Source: Candidatus Nitrosopumilus limneticus
GTDB taxonomy: Archaea > Thermoproteota > Nitrososphaeria > Nitrososphaerales > Nitrosopumilaceae
Assembly: GCA_022117465.1 (NCBI GenBank)
Contig: JAHCGZ010000002.1
Coordinates: 124,001-188,000, forward strand
Direction: 5' to 3'
DNA: 64,000 nucleotides
Part shown: piece after piece, positions 28,793 through 38,883 of the stretch
Layout: the number at the start of each line of letters is the position of its first letter
How positions within the stretch are numbered: position 1 is the first letter of the stretch
The notes under the pieces: model-generated
What the model saw: only the letters and a program-made list of their open reading frames with translations
The model's database searches: none
Told to the model about the DNA's origin: nothing
Program-made: the position numbers and the translations under genes

Positions 28793-28924
28793 AAAACAGC
28801 GTTATATTTGGCGGTTAAATAATCATCGAATTTTAGCTCAAGCTAGTCATGAAAAAATTGAAAAAATAAAAAAATATGCCTTACACAAGAGATAAATTTG
28901 AAAATACTGCGGGATAAATATTTC

Positions 28925-30122
28925 ATGACTCAAAAAGGAATTCTTGCATTTTCGGGAGGATTAGATACATCAGTTGTTGTAAAATATTTACAAGAAGAGC
29001 ACGACATGGAAGTAATCACAGTTACTGTAGATGTAGGTCAAGGAGATGATCCAAAAAAAATTGCTGCAAAAGCAAAAAATTAGGAGTTATAAAACATTAC
29101 AATATTGATGCAAGAAAAGAATTTGTTGACGATTACATATTTCCAGCAATTAAAGCAAATGCACTTTATCAAAAAAATATTGCTTAGCAACTGCTCTTGC
29201 CAGACCATTAATTGCACAAAAAGTTTTAGAAATTGCGAAAAAAGAAAAAGTGACATCATTAGCACATGGATGTTCAGGTAAAGGTAATGATCAAGTTCGT
29301 TTTGACATAACATTACGTTCGGGTTCAGATCTTCCAATCATAGCACCAATTAGAGATAAAAATTTAGATAGAGATACAGAATTAGAATTTGCAAAAAAAC
29401 ATGGAATAGAAATTGATGCAGTTGCTAAAAAATTTAGTATTGATCAAAATTTATGGGGAAGAGCAATTGAAGGAGGAGTTTTAGAAGATCCATATAATGA
29501 ACCACCTGCGGATGCTTTCATTTGGGTAAAAACAAAAAATTTACCTGATAAACCAACTTACTTGGAAATTAAATTTAATAAAGGAATTCCAATTGCAGTT
29601 GACGGTAAAACAATGGAACCAATAAAATTAATTGAATACGTTAACAAAAAAGCAGGAAGTGCAGGTGTGGGAATAGTTGATCATATTGAAGATAGAGTGG
29701 TAGGAATTAAATCTCGTGAAGTATATGAAACACCTGCAGCAACTTGTTTAATTGAAGCTCATGCAGATTTAGAAAAAATGGTACATACTAAACATGAAAA
29801 CAAATTCAAATCAATGATTGATGATGAATGGGCATATTTGGTGTATTCTGGACTTTGGCAGGATCCTCTAAAAACAGATCTTGATGGATTTATTGAAGCA
29901 TCACAAAAACCAGTATCTGGAACTGTAAAACTAAAGTTGTACAAAGGAAGTATTAGAGTAGTCGGAAGAAAATCAAGTAATTCACTGTACAGTCATGACA
30001 TTGCAACTTATGGGTCAAAATCAACTTTTGATCAAAGATTAGCCAAAGGATTTGTTGAATTGTGGGGAATTCAGTCAACAGAAGCTAATAAATTACAAAA
30101 GAAAATGAAAACAAAAACATGA
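28925..30122 (+). pseudogene. argG: Argininosuccinate synthase, two frameshifts
   Basis: ArgG joins citrulline and aspartate in arginine synthesis. The N-terminal [12 protein letters not shown] (ATP-pyrophosphatase P-loop) starts from the ATG at 28925. The frame stops at a TAG near 29081 after a run of six A (29074-29079) and shifts again after a run of seven A (29171-29177). One extra A at each place gives continuous protein, including [24 protein letters not shown] and EGGVLEDP, on to the TGA at 30122. An essential-type gene with two single-A losses is more likely misassembled than dead. The stop overlaps the ATG of lysW-1 (ATGA). Confidence 0.85.
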
Positions 30123-30286
30123 ACTGTCCAGAATGTGATGCAAAATTAAATATCCCAGAAGATGCCTCAGTAGGAGAGATAGTTTCCTGTCCTGATTGTG
30201 GAGCTGATTTTGAGATTTCTATAAAAGAAGGATCAAGAATTGAGCTCAAACACGCAGAAAGCGTAGGCGAAGACTGGGGAGAGTAA
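30119..30286 (+). CDS. lysW: LysW-type amino-group carrier protein, copy 1 (ends EDWGE)
   Basis: This gene is 55 codons long. Zinc-ribbon cysteines are C3/C6 (MNCPEC) and C24/C27 (VSCPDC). An acidic body follows, and the C-terminus is GEDWGE. The gamma-carboxyl of the last Glu is the known attachment point for the amino group of glutamate or 2-aminoadipate. It overlaps argG by four bases and the argX start by one (TAATG). Its company, argG and argX, suggests the arginine branch, though it could serve both. Confidence 0.95.
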   Translation: MNCPECDAKLNIPEDASVGEIVSCPDCGADFEISIKEGSRIELKHAESVGEDWGE

Positions 30287-31143
30287 TGTCAAAAATCAGC
30301 ATTGTTTTTGACCGTTTAAGAACGGAAGAAAAAATGCTGCAAGACGAAGCTGCTGAATTAGGTCATACCGCAGTAATGTTAGATGCAAAAATTACTCAAA
30401 TCAACACAGACACAAGAAAAGAGGATTTAGATTTAGGTGATGTGGTATTAGAAAGATGTGTTAGTTATTTTAGAGGTCTTCATTTTACATCAGCTCTAGA
30501 ATTTTTAGACATACCAGTCTTAAACAAATTTGACGTTGCAAATATTTGTGGAAATAAAATGTTTATGACATTAGTTTTAAAAAAAAATAACATACCAACT
30601 CCAAAAACATATTTTTCATTTTCAGGTGAAAGTGCTACAGAAAATTTAGAAAATGTTGGATATCCACTTGTGATTAAACCAGTAATAGGTAGTTGGGGAA
30701 GAGGAATCATGCCAATTAAAGACAAGGATACTATGGATGCACTTGTTGAAATTAGAGAAATTACAGATAGTCCACATGATAGAATTTACTATTTGCAAGA
30801 AGTTGTAAAAAGACCACCAAGAGACATTAGAATAATTACAATTGGAGATGAGCCAATTGCTGGAATGTATAGAAAATCATCAGGTGGTTTTAAAACAAAT
30901 ATTGCATTAGGGGCTAATCCAGAAATTTGTGAGATTACAAAAGAGATGGGGGAGATGGCAATTAAAGCATCAAAAGCAATGGGGGGAGGAATTTTAGGAA
31001 TAGATATGATGGAAGATGAAGAAAAAGGAATAGTAGTACACGAAGTTAATAATACAGTAGAATTCAAAGGATTATCAAAAGTTGCAAAAAGAAACATACC
31101 AAAAGAAATGATAAAATTTGCTTTAGATTATTCTAGAAAATAA
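30286..31143 (+). CDS. argX: LysW-glutamate ligase (ArgX-like) of the LysX/ArgX/RimK family
   Basis: The protein of 285 residues is an ATP-grasp ligase: VIKPVIGSWGRGI, RPPRDIRIITIGDE and a metal-binding end VHEVNNTVEFKG. It attaches an amino acid to the C-terminal Glu of LysW. I assign it to glutamate (ArgX), because it follows argG and lysW-1 and its specificity loop (NTVEFKGLSKV) differs from the paralogue at 36.9 kb, whose loop is closer to what I recall for Thermus LysX. The substrate split is inference. Confidence 0.85.
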   Translation: MSKISIVFDRLRTEEKMLQDEAAELGHTAVMLDAKITQINTDTRKEDLDLGDVVLERCVSYFRGLHFTSALEFLDIPVLNKFDVANICGNKMFMTLVLKKNNIPTPKTYFSFSGESATENLENVGYPLVIKPVIGSWGRGIMPIKDKDTMDALVEIREITDSPHDRIYYLQEVVKRPPRDIRIITIGDEPIAGMYRKSSGGFKTNIALGANPEICEITKEMGEMAIKASKAMGGGILGIDMMEDEEKGIVVHEVNNTVEFKGLSKVAKRNIPKEMIKFALDYSRK

Positions 31144-31159: not shown

Positions 31160-31489
31160 TCATCTAGGAAAATAAAACATAATTGCAATACCAATTAAAA
31201 CTACAATAGAACCAAGAATTTCAAATTTATCAGGTTTTTTCTTATCTATCCAATATCCCCACAATAAAGAAGATACAACAAAAATTCCACCATATGTCGC
31301 ATATACTTTTCCAAAATTTTCAGGTTGGAAAGTCATCACTACACCATATGAAAATAATATCAACCCTCCAACTATTCCAATAATTTTTCCTTGATGATTT
31401 TTTATCCATCTCCAAACTAAATAGCCCCCGCCAATTTCCAATAATGCAGCAAAAAAGAAAATACTTAATGATGTTATTGCATCAATCAA
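31160..31489 (-). CDS. YnfA/UPF0060-type small membrane protein, copy A
   Basis: The 109-residue protein has four transmembrane helices and the family blocks LLEIGGGYLVWRW, VYATYGGIFVVSSLLWG and PDKFEILGS. YnfA proteins are distant relatives of small multidrug-resistance (SMR) transporters. The basic residues lie mostly in loops 1 and 3 (RWIKNHQGK, DKKKPDK). It overlaps copy B by eight bases and starts with TTG. Transport function is inferred from family. Confidence 0.85.
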   Translation of the reverse strand: MIDAITSLSIFFFAALLEIGGGYLVWRWIKNHQGKIIGIVGGLILFSYGVVMTFQPENFGKVYATYGGIFVVSSLLWGYWIDKKKPDKFEILGSIVVLIGIAIMFYFPR

Positions 31490-31856
31490 ATTTTTCTCCT
31501 TTCCTAGGATAATAGAAAATTATTAAAATTCCAATTACTGCAATAATCGTTCCAATTACATCATACTGATCTGGGGGCACTCCATCAATTAACCATCCCC
31601 AAAAAATAGACATTACAATAAACACTCCACCATATGCGGCATAGATTCTATGAAAATGAGTTTTTTGAAATGTTGGGACTATTCCATAAAGAAACAATAC
31701 AAATCCACCCAATCCACCCAATATCCAACTAAAATCATGTCGTAACCATAACCAAATAAGATAGCCTCCACCAATTTCTAAAAATCCCGCCATAACAAAT
31801 AGAAATAATGAAGTTACAATATTTTTTGGAGACAAATTATTCACAGATATATCCAA
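31482..31856 (-). CDS. YnfA/UPF0060-type small membrane protein, copy B
   Basis: The 124-residue paralogue of copy A has GFLEIGGGYLIWLWL, IYAAYGGVFIVMSIFWGW and PDQYDVIGT. Its basic residues lie in loop 2 (FQKTHFHR) and the C-terminus (PRKGEK), the opposite pattern to copy A. The pair probably forms an antiparallel heterodimer, as in paired SMR proteins. The TTG start is the first codon of a clean N-terminus (MDISVNN). It is placed in opposite orientation inside the lys/arg region. Confidence 0.85.
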   Translation of the reverse strand: MDISVNNLSPKNIVTSLFLFVMAGFLEIGGGYLIWLWLRHDFSWILGGLGGFVLFLYGIVPTFQKTHFHRIYAAYGGVFIVMSIFWGWLIDGVPPDQYDVIGTIIAVIGILIIFYYPRKGEKFD

Positions 31857-32009: not shown

Positions 32010-33056
32010 ATGAAAGTTGGAGTAGTAGGAGCATCAGGTTATGTAGGAGGAGAGACACTTCGTCTACTCGTCAATCACCCAGATGTTGAAATCAGCATGG
32101 TAACATCAAGACAGCATGTTGGAGAATACCTACATAGAATTCAACCTAGTTTAAAGGGATTCACAGAACTTCAGTTTTCAGAATTAGATTATGATAAATT
32201 AACTGATCAATGTGATGTAGTATTTACAGCAGTACCACATGGAACGGCTACAGAAATTGTGAAAGCACTTTATGATAGAGGAATGAAAGTGATTGACTTG
32301 AGTGCAGATTACAGATTACATGAACAAGATGCATATGACAAATGGTATGGTTGGAAACATCCACATCCAGATTATCTACCAAAGTCAGTTTTTGGAATTC
32401 CAGAATTACATAGAGAAGAAATTAAAAAAGCACAACTTGTTTCTTGTCCAGGATGTATGGCTGTTACTTCAATTCTAGCACTTGCACCATTAATTAAAAA
32501 TGACATCATAGATACAAATCATATCATTGTTGATTCAAAAATTGGATCATCTGGCGCAGGTTCTGGTTCAGGTACTGCACATGCAATGAGAGCAGGAGTA
32601 ATTAGACCATACAAACCAGCAAAGCATAGACATACAGGTGAAATCGAACAAGAGTTAAGTCAAATTGCAGGGGAAAAAATTCATGTTTCAATGAGTCCTC
32701 ATGCAGTAGATGTTGTTAGAGGTATTTTATGTACAAATCATACATTCATGAAAAAAGATATCGAAGAAAAAGAATTATGGAAAATATATCGTCAGGCTTA
32801 TGGAGAAGAAAAATTTATCAGATTAATTAGAGATAAAAATGGATTGTATAAATTCCCAGATCCAAAATTCCTAGTAGGTTCAAACTTTTGTGATATTGGA
32901 TTTGATATAGATGAAGATAACAATAGATTAATTGCTTTATCAGCATCAGATAATTTAATGAAAGGTGCAGCAGGGTCTGCAATTCAAAACATGAATGTTA
33001 TGTGTGGTTTTGATGAAATGAATGGACTAAGATACACTCCATTAACTCCAGTTTAG
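32010..33056 (+). CDS. lysY: LysW-acyl-phosphate reductase (LysY/ArgC)
   Basis: The 348-residue protein of the ArgC family has the NADP motif GASGYVGGE, the catalytic Cys in VSCPGCMA and HRHTGEIEQEL. It reduces LysW-gamma-glutamyl phosphate or LysW-aminoadipyl phosphate to the semialdehyde. As only one copy is seen, it likely serves both the lysine and arginine branches. It starts a forward operon with lysZ, lysJ and lysM. Confidence 0.92.
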   Translation: MKVGVVGASGYVGGETLRLLVNHPDVEISMVTSRQHVGEYLHRIQPSLKGFTELQFSELDYDKLTDQCDVVFTAVPHGTATEIVKALYDRGMKVIDLSADYRLHEQDAYDKWYGWKHPHPDYLPKSVFGIPELHREEIKKAQLVSCPGCMAVTSILALAPLIKNDIIDTNHIIVDSKIGSSGAGSGSGTAHAMRAGVIRPYKPAKHRHTGEIEQELSQIAGEKIHVSMSPHAVDVVRGILCTNHTFMKKDIEEKELWKIYRQAYGEEKFIRLIRDKNGLYKFPDPKFLVGSNFCDIGFDIDEDNNRLIALSASDNLMKGAAGSAIQNMNVMCGFDEMNGLRYTPLTPV

Positions 33057-33058
33057 AA

Positions 33059-33862
33059 ATGATCACAATTAAAATTGGTGGAAGTGTAGTAGATGATTTG
33101 CATCCATCCACAATTTCAGATATTAAAAAAATTGCAGAAACAGAAGGAATCATAATAGTTCATGGTGGAGGAAAAGAAGTTACAAAAGTTTGTAAACAAT
33201 TAGGCAAAGAACCAAAATTTGTAACATCACCAAGTGGAATTAAGAGTAGATATACAGACAAAGAAACTGCAGAAATTTTTACAATGGTGATGTCAGGAAG
33301 AATTAATAAAACAATAGTTCAAATGCTACAAAAAAATGGAATTAATGCAATTGGGCTATCCGGAGTAGATGCCAAAGTCATAGAAGCAGAAAGAAAAAAG
33401 AAATTATTAATTATAAATGAAAAGGGCAGAAAACAAGCAATTGATGGAGGATATACAGGTAAAATTAAAAATGTAAATTCTGAATTTATCAAATTATTAC
33501 TTAAGCAAGGATTAACACCAGTAATTTCACCCATAGCAATTAGTGAAGAATCAGAGTTTCTTAATGTAGATGGAGACAGAGCTGCAGCATATATTGCTGG
33601 TAGTATAGGCTGTGACAAAGTATTATTCATTACAAATGTAGATGGGCTTTTAATAGATGACAAAGTAGTATCAAAATTGACATTAATAGAAGCAAAAGAA
33701 ATTCGACCAAAAATTGGTCCAGGAATGGAAAAAAAGATTTTGGCTTCCACAGAAGCATTGGAAATGGGAGTGAAACAAGCTTTCATTGCAAATGGTCAAA
33801 AAGAAAATCCTATATCCTCAGCAATTTCACACGATAATTGTACGGTGATTGAAAATGAGTGA
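33059..33862 (+). CDS. lysZ: LysW-acyl kinase (LysZ/ArgB)
   Basis: This 267-residue amino acid kinase has IKIGGSVVDD, IVHGGGKEV, the nucleotide-binding block FITNVDGLL and a kinase end KIGPGMEKKI. It phosphorylates the side-chain carboxyl of the amino acid held by LysW. Two bases after lysY; it overlaps lysJ by eight bases. Confidence 0.92.
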   Translation: MITIKIGGSVVDDLHPSTISDIKKIAETEGIIIVHGGGKEVTKVCKQLGKEPKFVTSPSGIKSRYTDKETAEIFTMVMSGRINKTIVQMLQKNGINAIGLSGVDAKVIEAERKKKLLIINEKGRKQAIDGGYTGKIKNVNSEFIKLLLKQGLTPVISPIAISEESEFLNVDGDRAAAYIAGSIGCDKVLFITNVDGLLIDDKVVSKLTLIEAKEIRPKIGPGMEKKILASTEALEMGVKQAFIANGQKENPISSAISHDNCTVIENE

Positions 33863-35030
33863 AGATGAACACATGGGAAATCTCTATCAAAGATTTCCAG
33901 TTACAATTGAAAGAGGTATTGGAGCTCATGTTTGGGATATAGAAGGAAAGGAATACATCGATTGTATGGGTGGATATGGAGTAGCATTAGTTGGACATCA
34001 AAATCAAAGGGTAAATAATGCAATCAAGGAACAAATTGATAAAATAATTACTGTACACGGTTCACTTTACAATAAAACAAGGGAAGCATTTTTAAAAAAA
34101 TTAATTGGGATAGCTCCAAAAGGGTTAACTCAAGTTCATCTCAATAACAGTGGAGCAGAAGCTGTTGAAGCTGCAATGAAATTTGCAAGAAAGTATACAG
34201 GAAAAAAAGGAATGGTTGCAATGAAAGGATCATATCATGGAAAAACATTTGGATCATTATCATTAACATTTAATCCAAAATATAGAAAATCATTTTCACC
34301 ATTAGTTGAAAAAGTTTCTTTTGCAACATTTGGAGATATGGAATCACTTCGATCAGTAATTGATGAAGATACAGCATTCATAATTTTGGAACCAATTCAA
34401 GGAGAAAGTGGAATTATTGTTGCTCCAGATGGATTCTTACAGGAAGTTAGAAATCTATGCAATGAAAAAGGAATTTTATTAATTTTTGACGAAATTCAAG
34501 CAGGGTTAGGAAGAACTGGTCGATTATGGGCAGGAGAGCATTGGAATACGGCACCAGATATTTTATGCCTTGCTAAAGGAATTGCAGGTGGAGTACCAAT
34601 GGGTGCGACATTAGTTAGACCAGATATTTTAGCAGCAATGAGTAAAGGAGAGCATTCATCAACATTTGGTGGAAGTCCAATTGCATGTGCAGCAGGAATT
34701 GCGGCACTGACATCAATAACAGAAGATGGATTAATTGAAAATTCTAAAAAAATGGGAGAGATTTTTAAAGAAGGATTAGAAAAATTAAAAGAAAAACATA
34801 CAATGATTAGAGAAATTAGAGGAAAAGGACTAATGATTGGAGTTGAAATGAAATTTGAAGTAAAGGATATTTTGATGGGATTAATCCAAGAAGGTGTTTT
34901 AATGTTATATTCAGGAAGAAATGTTCTTAGAATATTACCTCCACTAGTAATTAATGAGGAAGACATAACAAAAGTTTTACATGCTTTAGATGTTGTAATA
35001 ACTAAAGAGGAACAACGAAAGGATGTTTAA
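33855..35030 (+). CDS. lysJ: LysW-semialdehyde aminotransferase (LysJ/ArgD)
   Basis: This class III PLP aminotransferase has about 391 residues. Visible are NSGAEAVEAAMKFARKYTGK, SYHGKTFGSLS, the PLP-binding DEIQAGLGRTG, and the Schiff-base Lys in LCLAKGIAGG. It converts the LysW-bound semialdehyde to LysW-lysine or LysW-ornithine. The ATG at 33855 is preferred to the TTG two codons earlier. Confidence 0.92.
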   Translation: MSEDEHMGNLYQRFPVTIERGIGAHVWDIEGKEYIDCMGGYGVALVGHQNQRVNNAIKEQIDKIITVHGSLYNKTREAFLKKLIGIAPKGLTQVHLNNSGAEAVEAAMKFARKYTGKKGMVAMKGSYHGKTFGSLSLTFNPKYRKSFSPLVEKVSFATFGDMESLRSVIDEDTAFIILEPIQGESGIIVAPDGFLQEVRNLCNEKGILLIFDEIQAGLGRTGRLWAGEHWNTAPDILCLAKGIAGGVPMGATLVRPDILAAMSKGEHSSTFGGSPIACAAGIAALTSITEDGLIENSKKMGEIFKEGLEKLKEKHTMIREIRGKGLMIGVEMKFEVKDILMGLIQEGVLMLYSGRNVLRILPPLVINEEDITKVLHALDVVITKEEQRKDV

Positions 35031-35442
35031 AGATAAAATTGATGAAAGAATTATAGGATATCTAAAGGAAGATTCCAGAGAATCATTTGTAGATATTGGT
35101 AAAAAATTAAAACTTTCTGAATCAGCAGTTAGAAGAAGAGTTAAGAATTTAGTAGATAGTAAAACAATAAATAAATTTACAATAGAATTAGGAGAAGAAA
35201 ACGTCACTAGTGCAATTGTACTAGTTTCAGTAGATTCTGCAGCAGATACATCCAAAGTATCTCTAAAACTTGCAAAACTAGAGGGAGTAAAAACGGTGTA
35301 TGAGATTACAGGACAATATGATATTACAACAATAATTAATGCATCAAGTATTGCAGAAATTAATAACAGCATAGATGCATTAAGAAAAATTCCAGGTGTG
35401 GTAGATACCAATACCGTAATTATTTTAAGAAAAGTTATCTAA
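35023..35442 (+). CDS. lysM: Lrp/AsnC-family regulator (LysM-like)
   Basis: The protein has 139 residues: an N-terminal winged helix (DERIIGYLKEDSRESF... SESAVRRRVKNL) and a C-terminal RAM ligand domain (TVYEITGQYDITTII). The gene overlaps lysJ by eight bases. In Sulfolobus, LysM regulates the lys operon in response to lysine; the same job here is inferred from position. Confidence 0.88.
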   Translation: MFKDKIDERIIGYLKEDSRESFVDIGKKLKLSESAVRRRVKNLVDSKTINKFTIELGEENVTSAIVLVSVDSAADTSKVSLKLAKLEGVKTVYEITGQYDITTIINASSIAEINNSIDALRKIPGVVDTNTVIILRKVI

Positions 35443-35558: not shown

Positions 35559-36725
35559 ATGATAGATCCGAATCACTATGCAAATTTGTATAACGCATAT
35601 GAAAAAAACCCAAAAAAGATTAGAGTGTTAGATAGTACTCTAAGGGAAGGTGAACAACATCCAGGGGTTTCATTCACAAATAAACAACGAATTCAGATTG
35701 CATGGATGTTAGATTATTTTGGAGTTGATCAAATTGAAATATCTCCAATAATTTCAAAAGATCATCAAGAAGCCACTAAAACAATAATCAAACAAGGATT
35801 ATCAGCAGACATAGTATCACATGGGCGTGCACTTAAAGAAGACATAGACATATCATTGGATTGTGATGCAAAATGGTGTGCGGCATATTTAGGAATTTCA
35901 GATATACATCTAAAAGATAAATTACGAATTTCCAGAGAAGAAGCTTTGGAAAGAGCTGTAGAAACTGTAGAGTATGCAAAATCTCATGGATTAAAAATTA
36001 GATTCACAGTAGAAGACGGAAGCAGAGCAGAACCAGAATTTTTACTAACTGTCTGTAAAGCTATTGAGGAAGCAGGAGTAGATAGAATTAGTCTTCCAGA
36101 TACAGTTGGGATTATGCGACCAATTGGGATGTATAATTTTGTAAAGAAGGTTAGAGATGAAATTAGTGTTCCATTGGATGCACATGTTCATAATGATATT
36201 GGGTTTGCAGTTGCAAATGCATTTTCAGCATGTGATGCAGGAGTGGATCAAATTCATACAACTATTGATGGAATCGGTGAAAGAACTGGAATACCACCAC
36301 TTGCAGAAGTTGCAGTAGCACTAACATACTTGTACAAATCTCCAAATGATTTTAGATTAGACATGTTATTGGATTTATCCAAATTGATTGAAGATTATAC
36401 TAAAATCAAACCATATGATTCAAAACCAATTGTAGGTTCATCAGCATACAAACACAAGGCAGGTACACACCTTGCAGCCATTCTCAAAAATCCAGCAGCG
36501 TATGAACCAATTCCACCACGAGCTGTAGGAAATAGAAGAACAATAGTATTTGGAGAACTAGCTGGAAAAACAGGTGCAGCCTACTTGATGTCATTACTAG
36601 GATTAGAAAGTGATGAAGCAGGTGCAAAGGCAGTGGCATCTGGACTAAAAAATCTACGAATGGGAGACCTATTAGAAATTCCACTTGATGATAGACTTGA
36701 AAAAAAGATTATTGAAGATAAATAA
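35559..36725 (+). CDS. lysS: Homocitrate synthase
   Basis: This 388-residue DRE-TIM metallolyase opens its barrel with LDSTLREGEQHPGVSF. The metal ligands sit in DAHVHNDIGFAVANA, followed by IDGIGERTG. Acetyl-CoA and 2-oxoglutarate condense to homocitrate, the first step of the aminoadipate route to lysine. Placement directly before lysW-2, lysX and lysK favours homocitrate over isopropylmalate or citramalate synthase. Confidence 0.9.
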   Translation: MIDPNHYANLYNAYEKNPKKIRVLDSTLREGEQHPGVSFTNKQRIQIAWMLDYFGVDQIEISPIISKDHQEATKTIIKQGLSADIVSHGRALKEDIDISLDCDAKWCAAYLGISDIHLKDKLRISREEALERAVETVEYAKSHGLKIRFTVEDGSRAEPEFLLTVCKAIEEAGVDRISLPDTVGIMRPIGMYNFVKKVRDEISVPLDAHVHNDIGFAVANAFSACDAGVDQIHTTIDGIGERTGIPPLAEVAVALTYLYKSPNDFRLDMLLDLSKLIEDYTKIKPYDSKPIVGSSAYKHKAGTHLAAILKNPAAYEPIPPRAVGNRRTIVFGELAGKTGAAYLMSLLGLESDEAGAKAVASGLKNLRMGDLLEIPLDDRLEKKIIEDK

Positions 36726-36747: not shown

Positions 36748-36915
36748 ATGTCAAAATGTGAAGAATGTGATGCAGATATTTCCGTGCCAAGTGATGCACT
36801 TGAAGGAGAAATTGTAACATGTCCAGAATGTGGATCAAGTTTTGAATTAGCAAAAGGTTCACATGGTTTTGAACTAAAGCCGGCCCAAACGGTTGGCGAG
36901 GATTGGGGACAGTGA
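36748..36915 (+). CDS. lysW: LysW-type carrier protein, copy 2 (ends EDWGQ)
   Basis: This gene has 55 codons with zinc-ribbon cysteines C4/C7 (SKCEEC) and C25/C28 (VTCPEC). The last five residues are EDWGQ: the final codon is CAG at 36910-36912, followed by TGA. The conserved carrier Glu is replaced by Gln, so as encoded the side chain is an amide and cannot be activated by LysX without deamidation. GAGGAG lies upstream. The TGA overlaps the GTG start of lysX. By position it belongs to the lysine branch. Confidence 0.93.
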   Translation: MSKCEECDADISVPSDALEGEIVTCPECGSSFELAKGSHGFELKPAQTVGEDWGQ

Positions 36916-37754
36916 ATCCCGATGTTACAATTCTTTACGATTCCATACGTTGGGAAGAAAAAGCTCTACTAGAAGCTGGTAAAAAAAAAGACATCAACAT
37001 ACAGATGGTTGATTGTAAAAAACTAGCTTTAGATTTAGAAAAAAATCCTGAAGATTATGGAGTAGTTATACAGCGATGTGTCAGCTACTATAGAAATGTA
37101 CATTCTACAGCAGCTCTTGAAGGATTAGGAGTTAAAGTAATCAATTGTCTAAATACAGGGATCTTTGCAGGAAACAAATTGTTTACACATATGTTACTAA
37201 AAAAATTTGGAGTGCCAACACCAGATGCAACTGTTGCATTTTCAAAGGATGCAGTATTGGAGGCATTAGAAGCAGGTGGATATCCAAGAGTGATCAAACC
37301 AACAGTAGGTAGCTGGGGAAGATTAATTTCAAAATTAAATGATAAAGAATCGGCTGAAGGAATAATTGAAAGTCGAGAAACAATGTATCCTATTTATCAA
37401 ATTCATTATTTAGAAGAATTTGTAAATAGACCACCCAGAGATATTAGAGCAATAATGGTAGGCGATAAAATAGTTGCTGCGATTTACAGAAAGTCAGACC
37501 ATTGGAAAACAAATATGGCATTAGGTGGAACTGCTGAACCATGTAAAATTACACAAGAAATGGAAGAAATGTGTATCAAAGCAAAAAATGCAGTAGAAGG
37601 AGATATTGTAGGAGTTGATTTAATGGAAAGTGAAGAAAAAGGATTAGTAGTTCATGAAGTTAATAACACAACAGAATATAAAAATACTGTAAGGGTATGT
37701 GGTGTAGACATACCTTCTCTAATGCTGGATTATGCAATGAAAGTAGAAAGATAA
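36912..37754 (+). CDS. lysX: LysW-aminoadipate ligase (LysX)
   Basis: The 280-residue ATP-grasp ligase has VIKPTVGSWGRL, RPPRDIRAIMVGD and VVHEVNNTTEYKNTV. It should attach 2-aminoadipate to LysW. The substrate is inferred from the neighbouring homocitrate synthase and lysK and from a specificity loop (NTTEYKNTVRVCGVDIP) that resembles Thermus LysX as I recall it. The GTG at 36912 overlapping the lysW-2 stop (GTGA) is chosen over an in-frame TTG three codons earlier. Confidence 0.88.
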   Translation: MNPDVTILYDSIRWEEKALLEAGKKKDINIQMVDCKKLALDLEKNPEDYGVVIQRCVSYYRNVHSTAALEGLGVKVINCLNTGIFAGNKLFTHMLLKKFGVPTPDATVAFSKDAVLEALEAGGYPRVIKPTVGSWGRLISKLNDKESAEGIIESRETMYPIYQIHYLEEFVNRPPRDIRAIMVGDKIVAAIYRKSDHWKTNMALGGTAEPCKITQEMEEMCIKAKNAVEGDIVGVDLMESEEKGLVVHEVNNTTEYKNTVRVCGVDIPSLMLDYAMKVER

Positions 37755-37755
37755 A

Positions 37756-38883
37756 ATGGACAATCATTTTACAGTAACTTCAAAATTTGCAACAAAAATG
37801 CTAGAGAAATCACTAAGACTGTACACACCATCTCTTAGTGAAAAACCAATGGCTGAATTTTTAGCAGATAAATGTGATGATTTAGGATTTGAAGATATAG
37901 AAATTGACGAAGTAGGTAACATCATTGCAAAAAAAGGCTCAGGTTCTCCAACAATTATGCTATGTGGACACATGGATGTAGTGCCAGGTAAAATAAAAGT
38001 TAGAAAAGAAGGAGACTCACTTTATGGTAGAGGGGCATCAGATGCAAAAGCACCATTAATGGCAATGTTATTTGCAGCAGCATCAGTTGAAAAAAATCAA
38101 GGAACGGTTATTTTTGTAGGAGCAGTAGATGAAGAAGGAAATGCAATTGGAATAAAAAATATTGTAAAAAAACAAATGAATGTAGATTATGCAGTATTTG
38201 GAGAACCAAGTGGAATAAAACAAGTCACAATTGCATACAAAGGAAGATTAGCAATTAATTTGAAAATTACAGTTCCAAATAGTTCACATGCAAGTGCTCC
38301 ATGGCTTTCAAAAAATGCAATTGAAGAATCAATGATATTTGTAAAAGAATTAAAAGAAAAACTAGAAGCAAATCAAGAGAATAAAACAAAAGGAATGCTA
38401 CTAACCGCAACAATGACTGAGATTAAAGGTGGAACAAGTCACAACATAACACCAAAAGAATGTGAAACTCTTTTTGACATTAGAATTCCAGTGGACATGA
38501 ATTGTAAAACTATTGAACAAAAAATTGCGGTATTGGTAAAAGAAATTTCTCAAAATAGAGAAGTTGAAGCATTTTATTCAATTTTAGATGAAACTGAACC
38601 ATTTGAAGCACCACATGATTCAGTATTAGTTAGAGCATTTACACTAGGTATTTTGCAAGTTGAAAAATCCAAACCTACCTTAATTAGAAAAACAGGAACT
38701 GGAGACATGAATGTTTTAGGAAATCAATGGAATATTCCAGTTGTAACATATGGTCCTGGAGATCCACATGAAGCTCATACAATAGATGAAAAAGTATCAA
38801 TTGAAGAGTATCTAAAAGGTATAGAAATTTTCAAAGCAACTCTACAGCATTTAAAAAGACTACATGATAAAACAATGCAATAA
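37756..38883 (+). CDS. lysK: LysW-lysine/ornithine hydrolase (LysK/ArgE, M20 family)
   Basis: The 375-residue M20 metallopeptidase has the metal-binding blocks MLCGHMDVVPG, YGRGASDAKAP, VDEEGNAIG and FGEPSG. It cleaves the isopeptide bond between the LysW C-terminal Glu and lysine or ornithine. One base separates it from the lysX stop. Its stop overlaps the dph5 ATG by one base. Confidence 0.92.
   Translation: MDNHFTVTSKFATKMLEKSLRLYTPSLSEKPMAEFLADKCDDLGFEDIEIDEVGNIIAKKGSGSPTIMLCGHMDVVPGKIKVRKEGDSLYGRGASDAKAPLMAMLFAAASVEKNQGTVIFVGAVDEEGNAIGIKNIVKKQMNVDYAVFGEPSGIKQVTIAYKGRLAINLKITVPNSSHASAPWLSKNAIEESMIFVKELKEKLEANQENKTKGMLLTATMTEIKGGTSHNITPKECETLFDIRIPVDMNCKTIEQKIAVLVKEISQNREVEAFYSILDETEPFEAPHDSVLVRAFTLGILQVEKSKPTLIRKTGTGDMNVLGNQWNIPVVTYGPGDPHEAHTIDEKVSIEEYLKGIEIFKATLQHLKRLHDKTMQ

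Follow-up and report, generated by a model that had tools for sequence, protein, structure and literature searches.

A LysW carrier encoded with a C-terminal glutamine in Candidatus Nitrosopumilus limneticus and most other ammonia-oxidising archaea, and its possible priming by deamidation

In the synthesis of lysine and arginine on the carrier protein LysW, the ligases LysX and ArgX activate the gamma-carboxyl of the carrier's C-terminal glutamate. In the DNA of Candidatus Nitrosopumilus limneticus analysed here, a stretch of 64,000 nucleotides referred to as the window, the gene lysW2 (36748–36915, plus strand) encodes a 55-aa zinc-ribbon carrier protein with the C-terminus EDWGQ. Its 3' end reads GAG GAT TGG GGA CAG TGA, the last sense codon at 36910–36912 being CAG for Gln where the acceptor Glu is expected, followed by the stop codon at 36913–36915. 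The second LysW gene of the window, lysW1 (30119–30286, plus strand), ends in EDWGE, and both endings, already given in a preliminary description of this DNA, were confirmed in the sequence. How, then, could a carrier be loaded whose gene does not encode the residue that receives the amino acid?

Regarding family membership, lysW2 scores 87.9 bits against the LysW/ArgW carrier model NF041070 (cut-off 75; 89.5 bits for lysW1) and 44.9 bits against PF21344 (cut-off 27), and it adjoins lysX2 within a lysine/arginine operon, as is typical of LysW/ArgW genes. Likeness to known carriers (NF041070; 3vpb, 3wwl, 5k2m) comprises the zinc ribbon, the CxxC pairs, the GE turn, the EDWG tail and the gene order with LysX, whereas these characterised members carry the acceptor Glu at the C-terminus and LysW2 as encoded does not. 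Judged from its sequence, lysW2 belongs to the LysW/ArgW family by descent, but the direct acceptor property does not hold for the encoded protein. A search of the whole 1.19-Mb genome assembly revealed no LysW beyond lysW1 and lysW2, a third match at E=0.19 being noise.

The genes around lysW2, all on the plus strand, comprise lysX1/argX (30286–31143; TIGR02144, 286 bits), lysY/argC encoding a reductase (32010–33056; TIGR01850, 419 bits), lysZ/argB for a [LysW]-aminoadipate/[LysW]-glutamate kinase (33059–33862; NF010662, 312 bits, exceeding the cut-off), the aminotransferase gene lysJ/argD (33849–35030; TIGR00707, 438 bits) and a gene for a LysM-type Lrp regulator (35023–35442; NF040947, 180.6 bits at a cut-off of 180). 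Immediately 5' of lysW2, a gene of the homocitrate/isopropylmalate synthase family (35559–36725) scores 371 bits against TIGR02146 and 418 bits against NF002085, both under cut-off; its assignment is clear at the level of the family. Downstream follow lysX2 (36912–37754; TIGR02144, 334.7 bits, cut-off 275.6), a LysX-type ATP-grasp ligase with intact catalytic residues and PDB relatives 3vpd, 1uc8, 5k2m and 3vpb, and lysK (37756–38883), an M20 amidohydrolase best matching PDB 5xoy, a [LysW]-lysine hydrolase (E=4e-53). According to the signature rule cited in PMC10433800, the ligase beside the Gln-ended copy is of the LysX type (Asn-Thr signature, TEYKNT) and that beside the Glu-ended copy of the ArgX type (VEFKG, with Gly at the signature position). 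Besides, argG, encoding argininosuccinate synthase at 28910–30098, is broken near 29050–29080 and again near 29170, so that its pieces lie in three reading frames; it is intact in relatives, and the breaks are probably assembly indels rather than marks of a pseudogene. Between argX and lysY, the minus strand (31160–31856) encodes two tandem small membrane proteins, the first matching the YnfA family (NF002586) and the second by eye an apparent paralogue.

The preliminary description had warned that a single-base read error (GAG to CAG) might have produced the Gln codon, and that Glu in all relatives would speak against a genuine Gln. Among 80 loci from other genomes, lysW2 ends in CAG-TGA in 77 and in GAG-TGA in the remaining three (L045, L066 and L080), and lysW1 ends in Glu wherever seen. 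Moreover, an exact-pattern scan of 400 genomes of the host's class matched EDWG[EQ]-stop in 367 and EDWGQ-stop in 263 of them, with the reversed-pattern control for the latter matching none of the 400. Since Gln is shared by so many loci and genomes, the read error is excluded and the feared uniformity of Glu among relatives does not exist. The EDWGQ-pattern match in G427 is not a LysW (the LysW of this genome ends in Glu), and a second such match in G070 shows the codon TGG and no stop.

Within the class, Gln-ended LysW is limited to three families, f1 (the window's family), f2 and f3, and archaeal amoA was found in all 19 genomes tested from these. They probably correspond to Nitrosopumilaceae, Nitrosocaldaceae and Nitrososphaeraceae, respectively, the assignment of f1 being backed by Nitrosopumilus and Nitrosarchaeum loci. 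Outside the class, a Gln-ended LysW is the only one in G414 and G517 (both single contigs) and in G504, G407, G435, G509, G529, G442 and G514; in G414, G442, G504 and G407 it is clustered with relatives of lysY, lysZ, lysX, lysJ and lysK. In the outside genera g117 and g133, other species carry a Glu-ended LysW. These loci were picked by the Gln pattern itself, and the frequency of Gln outside the class is not estimable from them. A Gln-ended LysW is encoded in most ammonia-oxidising archaea including the host, and in several distant Thermoproteota. The idea that Gln strictly marks ammonia oxidisers is rejected, as the AmoA-positive genomes G112 and G136 have Glu on both copies and the AmoA-negative G414, G504 and G517 carry Gln.

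Which of the two carriers bears the Gln varies between lineages. In f1 and in genus g23 of f2, the arginine-side LysW ends in Glu and the lysine-side LysW in Gln, as in the window, and the same holds for genus g26 of f3. Genera g25, g28, g46 and g48 of f3 have Gln on both copies, g30 and g36 have it on the arginine-side copy with Glu on the lysine side, and g24 as well as G201 and G276 of g41 possess a single LysW, which is Gln-ended. Glu on both copies was found in five sampled f1 genomes (G078, G220, G260, G293 and G307), in genus g31 of f2 (G136) and in the f5 genome G112. Two f1 loci of genus g7, L190 (G037) and L229 (G141), show a Gln-ended arginine-type LysW without lysX in the contig stretch covered, unlike their relatives. 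In the 3.2-Mb one-contig genome G132 (L191; f1, genus g11), lysW2 is lost and the sole LysW, Glu-ended, lies beside both ligases. This reverses the situation in g24: the Gln copy was lost and one Glu copy kept.

Genomes with Gln-ended LysW only are decisive for whether this form takes part in the pathway. The single-contig genomes G109, G131 and G135 have two LysW each, both Gln-ended, and in G093, G100 and G070, likewise single contigs, lysW1 is lost and the one remaining LysW ends in Gln, with an operon that keeps argG, argX, lysY, lysZ, lysJ, the regulator, the synthase, lysX and lysK. A profile search of the whole genomes did not detect a further LysW in any of them. In G093 and G100, both ArgX and LysX have kept all 21 near-invariant residues inspected, the GSWGR motif and their own signatures. 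As the full pathway is kept in these Gln-only genomes, the Gln-ended LysW must be usable, which indirectly calls for covalent carriage of aminoadipate/glutamate by it, and where just one is present without a Glu copy it must, going by gene content, serve both ArgX and LysX. It is thus very improbable that LysW2 serves as a decoy or regulator that is never loaded, next to a Glu copy doing all the work. Such a role would suit the window, where lysW1 supplies a Glu-ended carrier and the Gln of LysW2 is without the carboxyl that gets activated, but it is rejected as a general rule by the Gln-only genomes, and it also disagrees with the placement of Gln on the arginine copy in g30 and g36 and with changes that revert to Glu. 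Of the two options put forward in the preliminary description, the non-loading carrier consequently fails in view of complete Gln-only genomes with intact ArgX and LysX, while the deamidation option, for which LysK had been named as one candidate and Pup/Dop as the analogy, fits all data. With Gln on the sole LysW of some genomes, we infer that the cell must convert it first.

To estimate how readily the two residues replace each other, 125 LysX proteins were placed on a tree and each was assigned the terminal residue of the LysW encoded next to it. On this quick tree, on which the counts depend, the Glu/Gln label changes at least nine times, five of these changes being forced by well-supported branches. 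For comparison, the third, silent base of the Gly codon in front of it changes 28 times, and 14 changes remain when only exchanges between purine and pyrimidine are scored. Glu/Gln exchange is one kind of transversion and is not clearly slower than the silent transversions; therefore, Glu and Gln at the C-terminus of LysW look close to interchangeable. Among the 123 sequences of f1 alone, the silent base shows 20 changes and the Glu/Gln base one; selection for Gln over Glu is not supported by this difference, as only three of the silent changes are purine/pyrimidine exchanges. From the interchangeability it would follow that Gln-bearing cells convert or use Gln efficiently and that this ability was already present whenever the change occurred.

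The GTG start of lysX2 (36912–36914) sits inside the stop of lysW2 (GTGA), the G of CAG being its first base. In principle, the C might be kept for this overlap (CA-GTG-A) and not for the protein, and all 123 f1 sequences indeed have the stop TGA preceded by G, just as a GTG overlap needs. Nevertheless, GAG-TGA gives the same GTG and exists in L045, L066 and L080; in addition, Gln codons occur as both CAG and CAA, with TAA, TAG and TGA stops, and in other families without any overlap. The codon constraint is rejected by these non-overlapping and CAA cases, and little credence is left for it. CAA-TGA, which would yield an ATG start for lysX2, is absent among the 123 f1 sequences.

The explanation favoured here, to which we assign a probability of roughly 0.6 as a whole, is that lysW2 makes a real, working LysW translated as a pro-carrier, the C-terminal Gln of which would be hydrolysed post-translationally to Glu, with LysK as the candidate deamidase, before LysX (or ArgX) activates the gamma-carboxyl and attaches the amino acid. 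That Gln-ended LysW is functional after conversion to Glu is, from the comparative genomic evidence, highly probable, and for LysK as the converting enzyme the chances appear about even. In an established LysW pathway, LysK releases lysine (or ornithine) from the gamma-carboxyl of the C-terminal LysW residue; removing ammonia from Gln would be a hydrolysis of the same kind in which a smaller group departs. LysK is regarded as the leading candidate because it is the sole amidohydrolase in the operon, cuts amides at the gamma-carboxyl and is present in 24 of 24 genomes tested. The metal-binding and catalytic residues H72, D74, D96, E126, E127, E150 and H341 are invariant in 13 aligned LysK proteins, and the lysK next to lysW2 is a clear relative of PDB 5xoy with the same catalytic residues, although the established activity of the latter is lysine release from LysW and deamidation of LysW-Gln is a proposal. 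In the accessible literature, no M20 enzyme was found described as releasing free ammonia from the side chain of a protein's C-terminal Gln. For the need of Glu itself, a Natrinema mutant with ArgW E54A is unable to make arginine (PMC10433800). A possible benefit of the pro-carrier would be that it is unloadable until it has met the enzyme that later frees the product.

LysK also occurs in genomes with Glu-ended LysW only, and for this reason the genomic data cannot tell it from an unlinked deamidase. A dedicated enzyme encoded elsewhere and turning LysW-Gln into LysW-Glu would fit these data equally well, and Gln-ended LysW lies apart from lysK in L190, L229 and L221 (G517). On the other hand, Glu and Gln flip both ways, even within genera, which is harder to reconcile with a dedicated enzyme that would need keeping in Glu-only lineages, and in ammonia oxidisers LysK represents the only amidohydrolase family linked to the operon; we consider this source of the activity unlikely, albeit the most serious competitor of LysK.

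Less probable still is a direct loading of Gln by LysX/ArgX, either by amide exchange or via an acyl-phosphate with ADP/Pi, in which no free Glu form would arise. LysX is conserved beside Gln-ended LysW, and for Dop, a phosphorylation of the amide oxygen of Pup-Gln has been put forward (PMC8599861). In disagreement with this, the active site of LysX is standard and no LysX residue following the Gln state was found in five independent pairs, a comparison of low power. If direct loading were true, Gln-only archaea would run lysine and arginine synthesis on an amide-primed carrier, representing a new type of carrier activation. Finally, the amino acid might be attached not to a side chain but to the terminal Gln's alpha-carboxyl, a group that exists in both the Glu and the Gln form; considering that known LysX chemistry employs the gamma-carboxyl of Glu and that the repeated Glu/Gln swaps with unchanged LysX would demand two regiochemistries, this proposal can hardly be entertained.

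Priming of Gln-ended LysW by deamidation would parallel the Pup/Dop system in its logic, an analogy and not a membership. Some species encode Pup, likewise a small carrier, with a terminal Gln and others with a terminal Glu, ligation takes place at the gamma-carboxyl of the Glu form, and in both cases removal of the conjugate and priming of the carrier would fall to a single enzyme, Dop both deamidating Pup-Gln and stripping Pup from its targets (PMC8599861). In contrast, the components are not homologous, a zinc ribbon, an ATP-grasp ligase and an M20 hydrolase (LysW, LysX and LysK) standing against Pup, the GS-fold PafA and the GS-fold Dop, and deamidation has been demonstrated for Dop but is proposed from genomic evidence for LysW. 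The term EDWGQ is absent from the open literature searched; subscription literature lay outside this search and may hold an earlier notice. A metabolic model of Nitrosopumilus maritimus employs the LysW pathway, its accessible part making no mention of a Gln end (PMC6038301).

Ammonia-oxidising archaea are abundant, and the finding bears on their synthesis of two essential amino acids. Annotation rules demanding Glu at the C-terminus of LysW would misjudge Gln-ended genes, and clear predictions arise for species whose sole LysW is Gln-ended. Conversion of LysW-Gln would mean that this textbook carrier pathway contains a processing step so far unrecognised, and would provide a second, unrelated case of the logic known from Pup, in which Gln is encoded and Glu does the work.
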